DNA of 48,931 nt from an uncultured Pseudomonadota bacterium (lineage in GTDB: Bacteria; Pseudomonadota; Gammaproteobacteria; Steroidobacterales; Steroidobacteraceae). Where the stretch lies: positions 1 through 48,931 of the forward strand of contig CAIOHZ010000100.1 in assembly GCA_903858165.1 (NCBI GenBank), given 5' to 3'. Shown here in pieces: positions 6,154 through 12,075 of this stretch (position 1 is the first letter of the stretch; every line of letters begins with the position of its first letter). The translations under genes were made by a program, and so were the position numbers. The notes beneath the pieces were generated by a model. The model was not told the origin of the DNA and did no database searches. It saw only the letters and a list, made by a program, of their open reading frames with translations.

Positions 6154-7530
6154 ATGAACCTGTGCGATGCTTTTGCTGAACTTGCCACCCGTTTCGGGGA
6201 GCGCTTTTCCACCAACGCCACCCTGCGCGAGCAGCACGGGCATGGCGAAAGCAACGCCGTGCTCTTCCCGCCGGATGGCGTCATCTGGCCGGAAACCACA
6301 GCCGAAGTGGCAGAAATTGTCCGCCTCTGCGTTGCGCATCGCGTGCCCATGGTGCCGTTCGGCGCCGGCACTTCCCTCGAAGGCCATATCGCGGCGGTAC
6401 GCGGCGGCGTGTGTATCGACCTCTCCCGCATGGACCAGTTGCTGGAGTGTTCGCCCGAAGATTTGGACTGCACGGTCCAACCGGGCATCACTCGTGAAGG
6501 GCTAAACCATGCGCTGCGCGAGACCGGGTTGTTCTTCCCGGTCGACCCGGGCGCGAACGCCAGCATCGGTGGTATGACCAGCACCCGTGCCTCCGGCACC
6601 ACCACCGTGCGCTACGGCGGCATGTCGGCAAATGTGCTGGCTCTCGAGGTCGTTACGCCCCAAGGTGAGGTGGTTCGCTTAGGCAGCCGCGCCCGCAAGA
6701 GCTCGGCCGGCTACGACCTAGTCCATCTGATGACGGGCGCTGAAGGCACTCTCGGCATCATCACGGCAATCACGTTGCGCCTGCACCCGCGCCCGGAAGC
6801 CGTAGGCACGCTCACCTGCGCCTATCCCGCCATACGTCCGGCTGTGGATACGGTTATCGAACTGGTACAACTCGGTGCGCCATTAGCCCGCATGGAGTTT
6901 ATCGACGAAGTGGCGGCGCGTGCCTGCAACGCATGGTCCGGCACCAGCTTGCCCGAAACACCCACACTGTTCATCGAGTTTCATGGCACGCCTGCAGGTG
7001 TGGCAGAGCAACTGGAACGCGCTCGCGAAGTCGTCCACGGGCACGGCGCCTCCGCCATCAGTACCAGCACGGATGAGCAGGAAATTGCGCAGCTTTGGCG
7101 CGCGCGGCACACTGCTTATCACGCCGGGCGCGCCTTGCGTCCTGGCACTGAAGCCGTCACCGGGGATGTGGCTGTGCCGGTGTCGCGGCTCGCGGACAAC
7201 CTAGTAGCCGCACGCGAGGACTTGGATGCCCATGGGCTCACGGCCGCTATTGTCGGCCACGTGGGCGATGGCAACTTCCATGTGCTGTTCCTGCACGACC
7301 CCGCCCCTTCTCGCGAAGCGGATCTCGTGAACGAGGTGTACTCCCGCATGATCGCGCGGGCACAGGCCGATGGCGGCACTTGCACCGGCGAACATGGTAT
7401 CGGCCTTGGCAAGCGCGACAAACTACAGGCGGAATGCGGGACCGGTACCTTGCAACTAATGCGCGCCATCAAGCAAGCCTGGGACCCGCTCGACCTCATG
7501 AACCCCGGAAAAATCTTGCCCGACGCTTAA
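6154..7530 (+). CDS. FAD-linked dehydrogenase, D-lactate/glycolate (GlcD/LDHD) type
   Basis: This 458-residue protein has an N-terminal FAD-binding PCMH domain (PFGAGTSLEGH near residues 68-78) and a C-terminal FAD-oxidase domain. The metal/substrate motif HVGDGNFH is at 369-376 and the conserved GEHGIGLGKRDKL begins at 412. Length and motifs match LDHD-like D-lactate dehydrogenases and GlcD of glycolate oxidase; these oxidise a D-2-hydroxy acid and pass electrons to quinone or cytochrome c. No GlcE or GlcF partner is next to it, which favours a stand-alone D-lactate or D-2-hydroxy acid dehydrogenase. No clear ribosome site precedes the ATG. The stop overlaps the convergent MATE gene by four bases. 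Control through the inverted repeat at 6115-6136 is likely but unproven. Confidence 0.9.
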   Translation: MNLCDAFAELATRFGERFSTNATLREQHGHGESNAVLFPPDGVIWPETTAEVAEIVRLCVAHRVPMVPFGAGTSLEGHIAAVRGGVCIDLSRMDQLLECSPEDLDCTVQPGITREGLNHALRETGLFFPVDPGANASIGGMTSTRASGTTTVRYGGMSANVLALEVVTPQGEVVRLGSRARKSSAGYDLVHLMTGAEGTLGIITAITLRLHPRPEAVGTLTCAYPAIRPAVDTVIELVQLGAPLARMEFIDEVAARACNAWSGTSLPETPTLFIEFHGTPAGVAEQLERAREVVHGHGASAISTSTDEQEIAQLWRARHTAYHAGRALRPGTEAVTGDVAVPVSRLADNLVAAREDLDAHGLTAAIVGHVGDGNFHVLFLHDPAPSREADLVNEVYSRMIARAQADGGTCTGEHGIGLGKRDKLQAECGTGTLQLMRAIKQAWDPLDLMNPGKILPDA

Positions 7531-8894: not shown

Positions 8895-8986
8895 CTAGGC
8901 GCTCGTCAAAGGGGGTAACCCATGATACTGCGGTGTGCGGTTAGACTCGGGATAAAGTTCCCCCAAAGCCCGTGAGGTGCTCTGCC

Positions 8987-10078
8987 ATGTCGCCCAAGAT
9001 AACCCTGTGCTTTCTGCTATCCATGGCCTTGATTGCGCCGTGGAGCCTTGCCACTGCCGCCGCCACTCGCGCCGTGGCAGTCGATACCCCTTTCGGTGAA
9101 CCGCAGGCAGATCGCGGTTGGAGCGAGGCAGTCATTAGCGTCAGTCGCCTTGCCGTCATGGAGGAGTACCTCACCCACGTGGCGCGATGGCGCGTAGTGG
9201 CCCGTGGCAACACCGACCGCACCCTGCTGCGGCACTGGGGTTTGCCGGAAACCGCGCAGGGGCGCGAAGCCTTGCTGTGCAATCCGGGCGACCGCTCCGG
9301 TTGCGTGCGTCTCATCGAGTTCCGTGGTGTCCCTCAAGTACAAATTCGTTCCAGCGCCCAGCCGTGGGAAACCGGCGGTCTCTTCAGCCTAATGACCCGT
9401 GCTCGCGATATCGACGGCACTTTCGCCAGAGCCCGCAGCCTTGGATACGCCGGCTTCAGCGACCCGATCTACTTCGACTACAAGGGCGTGCGCCTGAAGA
9501 ACATGGTGCTGCGCGGACCCGACGGCGTGAATCTCGCGATCTACCAACGGGAGATCCCGACACTGGAGGGATGGTCTAACATCCGGGGCCTGTCCAGTCC
9601 GTTCAATGCGATGCAAATGGTGCGCAACCGCGAAGTGTCGCGCGCGTTCTGGATAGAAGTCATGGACTACAGCAGCTTGTCGGATGCAGAGTTTTTGGAC
9701 GACCAGCCCGGCGAAAACAACTTCGCACTGCCCGCCAACCTAGTCACCAGCGTTTCGCGGCGTCACTCTATTCTCGGCAAGGGCGTGGCGGGCCTCGCCA
9801 ACGGCGCCGGCACGCGGCAAGTAGAACTGATGCAGTTTGTCGGACTGGACGGGCGCGAACTCGGCGCCCGCGCCGTCTTCCCCAACCTCGGCTTGGTGGC
9901 GCTGCGCTTCCCCACCGCGAACCTCGCCGCTTATCGCGACCGCGCAGCGAAGTACGGTACGGCGGACTGCAAAGTCAGCGCGGTGAAGGTACAAGGCTGG
10001 GGACTGGTAAAAGCCTGCGACTTGCGCAGCCCCGATGGGGTTATCGCGGAACTGCTGGAGGCAACCTCAGGGCAGTAG
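8987..10078 (+). CDS. Exported VOC (glyoxalase/bleomycin-resistance fold) family protein
   Basis: This 363-residue protein has an N-terminal signal peptide (about residues 1-24, cleavage near ATAAA). It appears to contain two vicinal-oxygen-chelate halves. The first ends in VLRGPDGVNLAIYQRE and the second in LRSPDGVIAELLE; both look like the last strand of a VOC module, with Glu at the metal-ligand position. VOC proteins bind a divalent metal or sequester ligands; well-known members are cytoplasmic glyoxalase I and ring-cleavage dioxygenases. Export of a two-module VOC protein is less common and its role is unknown. I use the ATG at 8987, preceded by GTGAGGTG; an in-frame GTG at 8972 lies within that ribosome site. 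It overlaps the convergent DUF374 gene by 12 bases. Confidence 0.75.
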   Translation: MSPKITLCFLLSMALIAPWSLATAAATRAVAVDTPFGEPQADRGWSEAVISVSRLAVMEEYLTHVARWRVVARGNTDRTLLRHWGLPETAQGREALLCNPGDRSGCVRLIEFRGVPQVQIRSSAQPWETGGLFSLMTRARDIDGTFARARSLGYAGFSDPIYFDYKGVRLKNMVLRGPDGVNLAIYQREIPTLEGWSNIRGLSSPFNAMQMVRNREVSRAFWIEVMDYSSLSDAEFLDDQPGENNFALPANLVTSVSRRHSILGKGVAGLANGAGTRQVELMQFVGLDGRELGARAVFPNLGLVALRFPTANLAAYRDRAAKYGTADCKVSAVKVQGWGLVKACDLRSPDGVIAELLEATSGQ

Positions 10079-10807
10079 CTGCAGCGGCTCACTATCCTGA
10101 AAACCCGCGTCGATATCCAGCCCGCGGTGGAGTTCAACCGTGCGGCGCTGCAGTTCCAGCCGCACCGCTTCCAGCGCAGCAGCGTCGAGCTTGGCTGGCA
10201 CCTCGAGTGGTTCACCCATGGCCACCTGCACCCTGGCGCCCCAACGCGGAAACACGGTACGGTCCCAACTCTTCTGCCAAATGCGGGCGCCCGCACTGGA
10301 AGCGGCTACCGGCAGGATGATGCCGCCGGCCTTCTGCGCCAGCGTAATAATGCCCAACTGCGCCACGCCACGCGGCCCGCGCGAGCCATCGATAGCCAGA
10401 CAGGAATTCAGGGCGCGGTCTTCACGCTGCGCCTTGATCATTTCTACCAGTGCGCGTGCGCCACCCTTGCCCGAGGAACCACGGGCCACGCGGAAACCCA
10501 GCCCTTCCTCGACGCGCGTCATGGCATCGCCATCGCGACTCTGCGAGCACATCAAGATCCAGCGACCGCGCTCGGGCAAACTGAAGTAGTGCAACAACTG
10601 GAAGGTACGCGCGTGCAGGAAGGCGCCGACTACGGGTTGGTTCCCACGGAGCAGTTCAGCCAACACTTCCGGATTACGGGTTTCGTAGCGCCACGAACCG
10701 GCCAGCGCTCGGTAGTACGCCAGCGCGGCCGGCGGCACCACGTGCTTCATCAAGAAGGCGCGCATCGGCTTGCGGCTGCGCGGCTTTTCTACTGGCGTAG
10801 CAGCCAT
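10067..10807 (-). CDS. DUF374 / lysophospholipid acyltransferase-like protein
   Basis: This 246-residue protein matches the DUF374 family, related to LPLAT acyltransferases. Landmarks are FLHARTFQLL (His at the place of the usual WHG/R motif), CSQSRDGDAM, RGSSGKGGARALVEM, IDGSRGPRGVAQLGIITLAQKAGGIILPV and GEPLEVP. Family members are thought to transfer acyl chains at the inner membrane, but few have been tested. The ATG at 10807 begins two bases after the HMG-CoA reductase stop, so the two genes are almost certainly co-transcribed and translationally coupled. The same frame is open upstream to 11260 inside the reductase gene; that part is a shadow. The pairing hints at an isoprenoid- or lipid-related job, which is inference. 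Confidence 0.82.
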   Translation of the reverse strand: MAATPVEKPRSRKPMRAFLMKHVVPPAALAYYRALAGSWRYETRNPEVLAELLRGNQPVVGAFLHARTFQLLHYFSLPERGRWILMCSQSRDGDAMTRVEEGLGFRVARGSSGKGGARALVEMIKAQREDRALNSCLAIDGSRGPRGVAQLGIITLAQKAGGIILPVAASSAGARIWQKSWDRTVFPRWGARVQVAMGEPLEVPAKLDAAALEAVRLELQRRTVELHRGLDIDAGFQDSEPLQLLP

Positions 10808-10809
10808 CT

Positions 10810-12075
10810 TCAGATCGCGGCCGTGCCGAGCGCCTTGCGCCCACCGCTGGCATGGGCACCAGCAAAAGCCCCGCCTGCCATTGCACCGACGACAGACAGT
10901 TCCCCGGCCAGCACCACAGCGGCAATGATTTCGGCGAACTTCGCGGCATTGCCAGTACCACGACAACCCAGCATGGCCAAACATTCCTGCGCTGTCGGCA
11001 GGTACGTGCCGCCACCCACCGTCCCCACGATAAGATTGGGCAAGGTCACGGAAAGATACACGTTCCCGTCCCGTGTCAATTCGACGCGCGTGAGTGCCGT
11101 GCTGGCTTCGCACACGCAAGCGACATCCTGACCGCAGGCAATGAACAGCGCGGCCACAGCATTGGCGGCGTTGCCTTGCAGCCCTGTGGCCCCGCTTTGC
11201 GCCATGCCGGCCACGGCTTGTTGCCAGCAGCGCACCATGGCGGACGGGTCCGCACGCCAATAGCCACGCAGCACCTTGGCTGACAGCACAATCTCCGCAC
11301 TGGCATTGCGGCCGCGAGCGCCACGGAATGCCATGGCTGTGGCGCGCTTATCGCCGGACAGCGCAGACTCCACGAGCCAAGTGAGTGGCTTCTGTGCCGC
11401 GTTGGCCAGCAGACACTCGCAAACCGCCTGTGCACCCGCGGTCACCATGTTTTGGCCAGCGGCGTCGCCAGTAACAAACTCCAACATCACGTAGACGGTA
11501 TTGCCGATGACTGCCGGGTGCACCTCGCGCAAGCGACAGAAACGGGAAGTACTACGCACCGCCTCTTCCAGTTGCGCACGCAGCCGATGAACCTCACCGA
11601 CGAATGCCGCAGCGGTCGGCAGGTCGGCAAACTCGAAGCACGGAGCGCGACCAACGCGTTCGTCGGTGACGGCGGTGCGGACACCGCCCGAACGGTTCAT
11701 GGCGTTGAAGGCGTGCTGGAATGACGCCACCAATGTGCCTTCGCTGGTGGCGAAGGGCACGAAGAAGTCACCGCTGGCCTGAACCCCCTGCACCTTCAGC
11801 GGCCCGGCTACGCCGATGGGGACGCGGGCGTAACCGATATGCCCCTCGATGGAACCGGCCAACTGCGCGGGGTCGAGGTCCAGCGCGATACCGGCTAAGT
11901 GGTCGACGGCATGGCCGTCAAGCCGCAGCCGGGCCAGACGGGCTGCCGTCGCCTCGCTGGAACATTCAGCAGTAGCCGGCAAGCGGCGCGGGGCAGCAAC
12001 GGGAGCTTCGCCAGCACCGGTCGCACCAGCAGAGTCAGTCGGGCCAGTCGCGCCGTGGGACGTTTCAGAGTTCAT
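10810..12075 (-). CDS. Hydroxymethylglutaryl-CoA reductase, class I-like
   Basis: This 421-residue protein is an HMG-CoA reductase, which uses NAD(P)H to make mevalonate. The catalytic residues of class I enzymes are all in place: Glu112 in ATSEG, Lys243 in SGDKR, Asp317 in ACGQDVA and His408 near the C terminus in GAHAS. Also visible are IGYARVPIGVAGPL (about 80-93), the cofactor motif TGDAAGQNM (202-210) where the class I consensus is GDAMGMNM, and VGTVGGGTYLPTAQE (350-364). There is no N-terminal membrane domain; the first 45 residues are low-complexity Ala/Gly/Thr. Most Gammaproteobacteria make isoprenoids by the MEP pathway, so this gene is unexpected. No HMG-CoA synthase or mevalonate kinase is in the window. 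It forms an operon with the DUF374 gene. Confidence 0.93.
   Translation of the reverse strand: MNSETSHGATGPTDSAGATGAGEAPVAAPRRLPATAECSSEATAARLARLRLDGHAVDHLAGIALDLDPAQLAGSIEGHIGYARVPIGVAGPLKVQGVQASGDFFVPFATSEGTLVASFQHAFNAMNRSGGVRTAVTDERVGRAPCFEFADLPTAAAFVGEVHRLRAQLEEAVRSTSRFCRLREVHPAVIGNTVYVMLEFVTGDAAGQNMVTAGAQAVCECLLANAAQKPLTWLVESALSGDKRATAMAFRGARGRNASAEIVLSAKVLRGYWRADPSAMVRCWQQAVAGMAQSGATGLQGNAANAVAALFIACGQDVACVCEASTALTRVELTRDGNVYLSVTLPNLIVGTVGGGTYLPTAQECLAMLGCRGTGNAAKFAEIIAAVVLAGELSVVGAMAGGAFAGAHASGGRKALGTAAI

Follow-up and report, generated by a model that had tools for sequence, protein, structure and literature searches.

A conserved pair of genes for an FcrA-like reductase and a DUF374 acyltransferase in a Steroidobacteraceae bacterium: a possible two-step route to a fatty-alcohol lipid

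What does a gene annotated as 3-hydroxy-3-methylglutaryl-CoA (HMG-CoA) reductase (HMGR) do in a bacterium that uses the methylerythritol phosphate (MEP) route to isoprenoids? The question is raised by a stretch of DNA of 48,931 nucleotides (the window), which is an entire contig (CAIOHZ010000100.1, C100 in our numbering) of the genome of an uncultured Steroidobacteraceae bacterium, assembled to 3.38 Mb in 307 contigs and 99.3% complete. An fcrA-like gene at positions 10810-12075 of its minus strand codes for a 421-residue protein with a class I HMGR fold, and is followed on the same strand, at 10067-10807, by a gene coding for a 246-residue acyltransferase of the DUF374 (LpxJ) family. Both are intact open reading frames (ORFs), separated by 2 bases (10808-10809), the stop codon of the reductase gene ending at 10810 and the ATG of the DUF374 gene beginning at 10807. 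This arrangement had been correctly described in an initial annotation, which named the first product HMGR, supposed that both products serve one pathway, and proposed a genome search, an HMGR tree and a survey of the adjacency as checks; all three were carried out. The finding is real but probably misnamed. The reductase family itself is already known, as FcrA; the FcrA-DUF374 pairing is apparently new, as it was not found in the literature searched (papers on DUF374 were checked mostly by title listing). The pair suggests a route to a fatty-alcohol lipid that has two steps and is so far uncharted; if it works as proposed, it would narrow the question of why MEP-using bacteria have orphan HMGRs to the function of two genes.

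A class I HMGR fold with an FcrA-type pocket

The reductase matches PF00368 (E = 1.2e-98) and is the only protein of the window genome to do so. The closest solved structure is the archaeal class I HMGR 6hr7 from Methanothermococcus (E = 2.3e-68), which is also the best structural match of the AlphaFold model (mean pLDDT 73.6). Alignment with human HMGR confirmed the four catalytic residues named in the initial annotation: Glu112 (codon at 11740-11742, minus strand, like all codons and motifs given below), Lys243, Asp317 (11125-11127) and His408 align with human Glu559, Lys691, Asp767 and His866. Lys243 closes the motif ESALSGDK (residues 236-243; 11347-11370) and His408 the motif FAGAH (residues 404-408; 10852-10866). 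The cofactor motif was also read correctly as GDAAGQNM (residues 203-210; 11446-11469), with Gln at the position of human Met657. Fold, catalytic residues and place of the cofactor motif are shared with the class I HMGRs of human and Methanothermococcus, but the pocket is not. Human Ser684, Lys735, the lysine that binds the HMG carboxylate, and Leu862 are all substituted, by Glu236, Ala287 (11215-11217) and Phe404, respectively, and GQNM stands for GMNM.

These positions were compared in a MAFFT alignment of 62 locus rows, human HMGR and 6hr7, to which 8 loci were then added (72 rows, 60 of them distinct; several rows repeat one gene, and L014, L015 and L048 were dropped as short or weak). Ser684, Lys735 and Leu862 occur together in 14 of 14 rows of the Lys735 type (human, 6hr7, L069-L079 and L102). 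None of the 45 distinct rows of the GQNM type (Gln at human position 657) has Lys735; their residue 735 is Ala (23 rows), Ser (12), Gly (3), Thr (3), Phe (2) or Asn (2), and residue 862 is Phe (29) or Trp (15) and uncovered in one row. Residue 684 is less strict in these 45 rows (Glu 29, Ser 11, Asp 3, Ala 2), but is Glu in every row of the window clade. Positions 735 and 862 split the two kinds in all the class I rows inspected, save one incomplete row and one outlier, L099, whose motif is NAMGLNM and whose residues 735 and 862 are Cys and Phe. The outlier is a divergent HMGR-like gene of a Sinorhizobium plasmid (5881-7125 of that locus), lying amid genes for acyl-CoA carboxylase, indolepyruvate oxidoreductase and MmgE. 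The 'HMGRs' of Vibrio and Photobacterium were considered as counter-examples and discarded, as Lys735 is missing from them too and their residue 862 is Phe. An apparent 4-residue deletion in the HMG-binding loop, seen when HMMER was used for alignment to 6hr7, was also discarded, because the MAFFT alignment of all homologues is gapless there and the spacing agrees with that of FcrA.

In an IQ-TREE phylogeny of 57 rows, from which 16 repeated, cut-short or near-identical rows had been removed (L001, L005, L019-L021, L040-L047, L062, L090 and similar), the 14 rows of the Lys735 type part from the other 43 (42 GQNM rows and L099) with a support of 99/96.

The pocket signature of the window protein is that of FcrA (Grossi et al., 2025; PMC11948995), an HMGR homologue which was shown to reduce long-chain acyl-CoA (C14-C18) to fatty alcohol, and not HMG-CoA. 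Three pocket changes with respect to HMGR are described there: Ser684 to Glu in the Natronomonas pharaonis (N. pharaonis) enzyme, a universally conserved lysine to a mostly small residue, and Leu862 to a bulky one. The lost HMG-binding lysine is printed as Lys795; because Gly411 of FcrA precedes Asp441 (human Asp767), it must be Lys735, and we take the printed number as a misprint. The spacings of the pairs Glu236-Lys243 (7), Ala287-Asp317 (30) and Phe404-His408 (4) equal those of Glu360-Lys367, Gly411-Asp441 and Trp528-His532 in N. pharaonis FcrA (PMC11948995). The changes at 684 and 735 had been detected before the comparison with this paper, while 862 was checked afterwards. The window protein is therefore like FcrA in its class I fold, in its Glu/Lys/Asp/His set and in all three pocket changes. 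Unlike some FcrA, it has no N-terminal Lad domain, which is optional and described for certain FcrA only (PMC11948995); its PF00368 match starts at residue 52, and residues 1-26 of the model have a pLDDT below 50.

With the HMG lysine lost and the FcrA pocket signature present, the name HMG-CoA reductase given in the initial annotation is probably wrong. Homology and residue tests support an FcrA-type identity, and the predicted product is probably an NADPH-dependent, alcohol-forming fatty acyl-CoA reductase; that it acts as a fatty acyl-CoA reductase at all appears very likely from these comparisons of sequence. Genes of this kind carry the annotation HMG-CoA reductase, and in MEP-using bacteria would be taken for a step of the mevalonate pathway.

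The conserved gene pair and its genomic context

Both genes are under purifying selection, with ratios of nonsynonymous to synonymous substitution (dN/dS) of 0.048 for the reductase and 0.056 for the DUF374 gene with respect to a 94%-identical relative; the values are 0.030 and 0.068 with respect to an 89/86% relative, a distance at which synonymous sites are almost saturated. Sixteen distinct orthologues of the reductase with at least 60% identity were collected (window, G001, G002, G003, G015, G034 and L022-L031). The next gene on the same strand is the same DUF374 gene in 15 of the 15 loci, window included, that have sequence past the reductase stop; the contig of G003 stops inside the reductase gene, and that of G001 inside the DUF374 gene. 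In the 14 other paired loci the DUF374 protein is 61-94% identical to the window copy. The distance between the two genes, measured in 13 distinct relatives with starts chosen mechanically (L123 repeats L020), ranges from -4 to +70 nucleotides, with a 4-nucleotide overlap in five and the same strand in all 13. Because near relatives were sought with peptide patterns taken from the window gene, the pairing count covers close orthologues only. In the tree, the 15 rows with DUF374 as the next gene form one clade (100/100), to which L032 is sister; this 51% relative has a DUF3419 gene in place of DUF374.

Flanking genes were assigned with Pfam or, for the remainder, by eye. ORF clustering of 21 loci revealed no third gene common to the clade. 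A wider operon was therefore rejected; a downstream gene that reads as M3 peptidase-like recurs in six loci only. Because the wider flanks differ across the clade, the pair is the conserved unit; it is probably co-transcribed. In the window, a 368-residue plus-strand ORF (8972-10078) overlaps the end of the DUF374 gene tail-to-tail by 12 bases (10067-10078) and has no Pfam match at E 0.001. The pairing sets the window gene apart from FcrA as published, since a DUF374 partner is not mentioned in the main text of PMC11948995; the lack of WS/DGAT in the window genome is a further difference.

The window genome has no match to HMG-CoA synthase and one Dxr, an enzyme of the MEP route. By eye, its three GHMP-kinase matches look like homoserine kinase (ThrB), a sugar kinase and IspE, and no mevalonate kinase was recognised among them. 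The absence of HMG-CoA synthase is a further likeness to FcrA, as bacteria with an FcrA homologue but no canonical HMGR are reported to miss the other mevalonate enzymes (PMC11948995). A mevalonate branch was rejected on the presence of Dxr and the absence of HMG-CoA synthase. Together with the two other chemistries suggested in the initial annotation, mevalonate catabolism and a lipid built from HMG or mevalonate, it needs HMG-CoA or mevalonate, for which the pocket lacks the HMG lysine. The idea of a joint pathway survives in part: the conserved two-gene unit and an involvement of acyl chains fit it, while HMG-CoA or mevalonate chemistry does not. The initial annotation had held that an MEP genome without mevalonate genes and without conserved pairing elsewhere would argue against such a pathway. 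Dxr was indeed found without HMG-CoA synthase, but the pairing is conserved in other genomes.

The two isoprenoid routes are completely split in the 20 genomes that were searched for both markers, 13 having Dxr without HMG-CoA synthase and seven HMG-CoA synthase without Dxr. At E 0.001, the window protein has matches in 16 of 79 relatives and in 59 of 369 genomes of the class (window genome counted in both), and 40 of these 59 were checked for the two markers. Among the 16 with a GQNM-type reductase, Dxr is present in 15 and HMG-CoA synthase absent in 14. Two genomes deviate: G146 has the synthase and another HMGR match but no Dxr, and G216 has Dxr together with a weak partial synthase. The other 24 genomes, assigned to the other type by inspection of residues in 11 and by score alone in 13, have no Dxr in 23 cases and an HMG-CoA synthase match in 18 (17 over the cut-off), six having neither. 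Single frames of 756-834 residues with both HMGR and GHMP-kinase matches, that is, reductase-kinase fusions, were seen in four genomes (G061:C9, G051:C22, G052:C4 and G078:C97), in which HMG-CoA synthase is present and Dxr absent.

The DUF374 partner and the proposed fate of the alcohol

The only Pfam match of the second protein is PF04028 (E = 3e-17). Its AlphaFold2 model (mean pLDDT 91.2) matches PatA (Z 14.7 over 185 residues, 4.3 Å), PlsC (13.4), LpxM (12.4) and squash glycerol-3-phosphate acyltransferase (12.3); no wax synthase is among the 50 structure matches listed, which is not evidence against such an activity. The characterised DUF374 proteins are LpxJ, late acyltransferases of lipid A, described as acting on a hydroxyl acceptor with a His/Asp pair and without an HX4D motif, and six residues are essential in the Rickettsia typhi (R. 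typhi) enzyme: Trp60, His61, Asp86, Asp132, Trp172 and Asp173 (PMC6148475). His65 of the window protein (10613-10615), which follows Leu64, is the proposed catalytic base and corresponds to LpxJ His61, while Asp140 in DGSRGP (10388-10390) corresponds to LpxJ Asp132; these correspondences are by motif, the R. typhi sequence itself not being among the aligned rows. His65, Asp92, Asp140, Trp181 and Asp182 are the same in all 22 aligned DUF374 rows. At the position preceding the catalytic His, the 15 partner-type rows have Leu or Tyr, as compared to Trp in all seven paralogue rows from other genera, and mutation of Trp60 abolished LpxJ activity (PMC6148475). Because five of the six LpxJ-critical residues are kept and the Trp is changed, the partner looks like a competent acyltransferase whose pocket has been altered. 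It is like LpxJ in its DUF374 domain, His, two Asp, Trp-Asp pair and lack of HX4D, and unlike LpxJ in the Leu or Tyr and in sitting with FcrA. We file it as a DUF374 relative, and not as LpxJ.

Fatty alcohols have two well-known fates, wax esters made by WS/DGAT and ether lipids made by alkyl-dihydroxyacetone phosphate (alkyl-DHAP) synthase. WS/DGAT (PF03007) was found in 0 of 6 clade genomes, window genome included, as compared to 13 of the 29 genomes searched in all; the absences in G003 weigh little, because this genome is only 75% complete. As a mark of alkyl-DHAP synthase we used the motif HHH, which we take to be diagnostic and then saw in two loci discussed below. It occurs in an open frame in none of the 22 FAD-oxidase_C (PF02913) matches of the window genome (G000), G002, G015 and G034. 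Fifteen of these have EHG, one (L147) spans 24 residues, four (L142-L145) have enzymes of the vanillyl-alcohol oxidase or cresol hydroxylase type as best matches, and for two (L141 and L146) the best match is D-lactate dehydrogenase, along part of the sequence. A candidate at 6154-7530 of the window was rejected for this reason, being an FAD-linked oxidase with GEHGIG. Since neither WS/DGAT nor a recognisable alkyl-DHAP synthase was found, the DUF374 enzyme is the obvious candidate user of the alcohol. On lipid A the hydroxyl that LpxJ acylates sits on a 3-hydroxy fatty chain, and a fatty alcohol would be a chemically close acceptor because LpxJ acylates a hydroxyl.

We propose that the FcrA-type reductase, with the Glu/Lys/Asp/His machinery of HMGR retained, would carry out the same four-electron reduction with NADPH on a fatty acyl chain taken up by the remodelled pocket, and would release a fatty alcohol. 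Most likely, the DUF374 acyltransferase would then move an acyl group from acyl-CoA or acyl carrier protein onto this alcohol. The product would be a neutral or membrane lipid resembling a wax ester. The genome has no WS/DGAT, and the DUF374 enzyme would take the place of the usual wax synthase. The reaction proposed for it, in which acyl-CoA and a fatty alcohol give an ester, is that of WS/DGAT, from which the DUF374 partner differs in belonging to another Pfam family. By analogy, the adjacency of FcrA-like genes to other acyltransferases in relatives (WS/DGAT in L044 and L045, PlsC in L091 and L096) may be counted in favour. In Coxiella burnetii a PlsC-like gene adjoins the FcrA gene, and FcrA is frequently present without WS/DGAT (PMC11948995). 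We regard the two-step pathway as fairly probable, while a wax synthase in the specific sense is a tentative reading of the DUF374 enzyme, and a rather doubtful one. If true, the pathway would be a further way of making esters of fatty alcohols in the absence of any known wax synthase.

Several observations weigh against this proposal. The tree, whose rows included no characterised FcrA sequence, shows only the split from HMGRs of the Lys735 type. Of 59 FcrA-like proteins, 12 were modelled as accommodating smaller molecules only (PMC11948995). The GQNM type can coexist with the mevalonate pathway, because three of the seven HMG-CoA synthase genomes (G053, G067 and G078) carry both; absence of that pathway is no strict rule for the wider GQNM group. 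G032 has a DUF374 orthologue (54%) without any reductase match. No report of a DUF374 protein acylating a fatty alcohol was found in the literature searched. Finally, the partner is the only DUF374 match in the window genome and for this reason could be a general LpxJ-type enzyme.

The last point leads to the alternative that survives best, in which the FcrA alcohol goes elsewhere and the DUF374 protein is an ordinary secondary acyltransferase of lipid A, the two genes being neighbours through a role in the envelope. The characterised enzymes of the family are LpxJ (PMC6148475), the His, both Asp and the Trp-Asp pair are conserved, and in sister genera the neighbours of DUF374 paralogues include genes that by eye resemble those for lipid A or glycosyl transfer. 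Nevertheless, the Trp that is essential in LpxJ (PMC6148475) is kept by those paralogues and replaced in every partner-type protein, and the pairing with FcrA persists in all 15 loci although the flanks differ. We therefore consider this explanation unlikely, if worth keeping in mind. As an observation in its own right, loci L114, L115 and L117-L121, from other genera of the same family, have such a WHQH/WHQ-type paralogue instead of the FcrA pair, and several of these genes lie, by eye, near glycosyltransferase, ArnT-like or nadC-like genes.

Alternatively, the reductase might act on an acyl-CoA other than a straight long chain, such as a short, branched, hydroxylated or sterol side-chain one. 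The window clade is set apart from the Trp-type rows by Phe at 862 and by Asn at human His752, and some FcrA-like pockets are small (PMC11948995). However, the residues at 684 (Glu) and 735 (small) are as in N. pharaonis FcrA, and no conserved neighbour of the pair was seen that would belong to a special acyl-CoA pathway, so that we think a substrate of this kind rather improbable.

An ether-lipid route appears still less probable. Here the DUF374 enzyme would acylate dihydroxyacetone phosphate, and an alkyl-DHAP synthase would swap in the FcrA alcohol. Such a role was proposed for some FcrA (PMC11948995), and relatives provide examples: L096 (3391-6975, minus strand) has an FcrA-like gene, PlsC and alkyl-DHAP synthase in a row, the synthase matching 2uuu with E = 1.9e-115, and in L091 (286-5270, minus strand) the FcrA-like gene is followed by a PlsC-alkyl-DHAP synthase fusion. 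These are compact bacterial ether-lipid gene sets, and the window resembles them in having an FcrA-like gene beside an acyltransferase of the LPLAT kind. Unlike the window pair, however, they have a PlsC-type acyltransferase (PF01553) and the synthase itself, whose HHH motif is missing from the 22 matches described above, although a non-homologous synthase is conceivable.

A true HMGR, working forward to mevalonate or backward on it with HMG-CoA from leucine catabolism, is very improbable: the fold and catalytic residues would allow it, and the genome has two HMG-CoA-lyase-type genes over the NCBIfam cut-off, but neither lies in an evident leucine cluster by eye, so that this supply of HMG-CoA was rejected, the three HMGR pocket residues are replaced, the genome has Dxr and neither HMG-CoA synthase nor a recognised mevalonate kinase, and FcrA with such pocket changes does not reduce HMG-CoA (PMC11948995). 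The TIGR00533 score of the window protein (285.6 bits) lies below the cut-off of 441.8 but close to that of L102, an HMGR in a Streptomyces mevalonate cluster (282.8); because this control is also under it, the cut-off is uninformative and was abandoned as an argument against HMGR.

Other gene sets with FcrA-like reductases

In the group with Trp at 862, the reductase gene of L044 and L045 adjoins one for WS/DGAT: WS/DGAT, FcrA-like and DUF2505 genes are consecutive in L044 (880-10691) and L045 (8937-12048). In L044 these three are preceded by DUF1302, DUF1329 and YCF48-like genes and an MMPL transporter. These gene sets suggest export or outer-membrane placement of wax esters.

A different set recurs in L040, L080, L083 and L084, with fewer members seen in L081, L082 and L087 and partly in L032. 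It joins the FcrA-like gene to genes for UbiA-like, PPDK/PEP-utiliser-like and DUF3419 (BtaA-like) proteins and a dolichol-kinase-like membrane protein, many of which were assigned by eye, the UbiA match of L040 being below the cut-off; it looks like an undescribed lipid pathway. In L087 (9316-11835) an FcrA-like domain is fused to an APH-type kinase domain, and the gene adjoins one for a CDP-alcohol phosphatidyltransferase/CarS-like protein.

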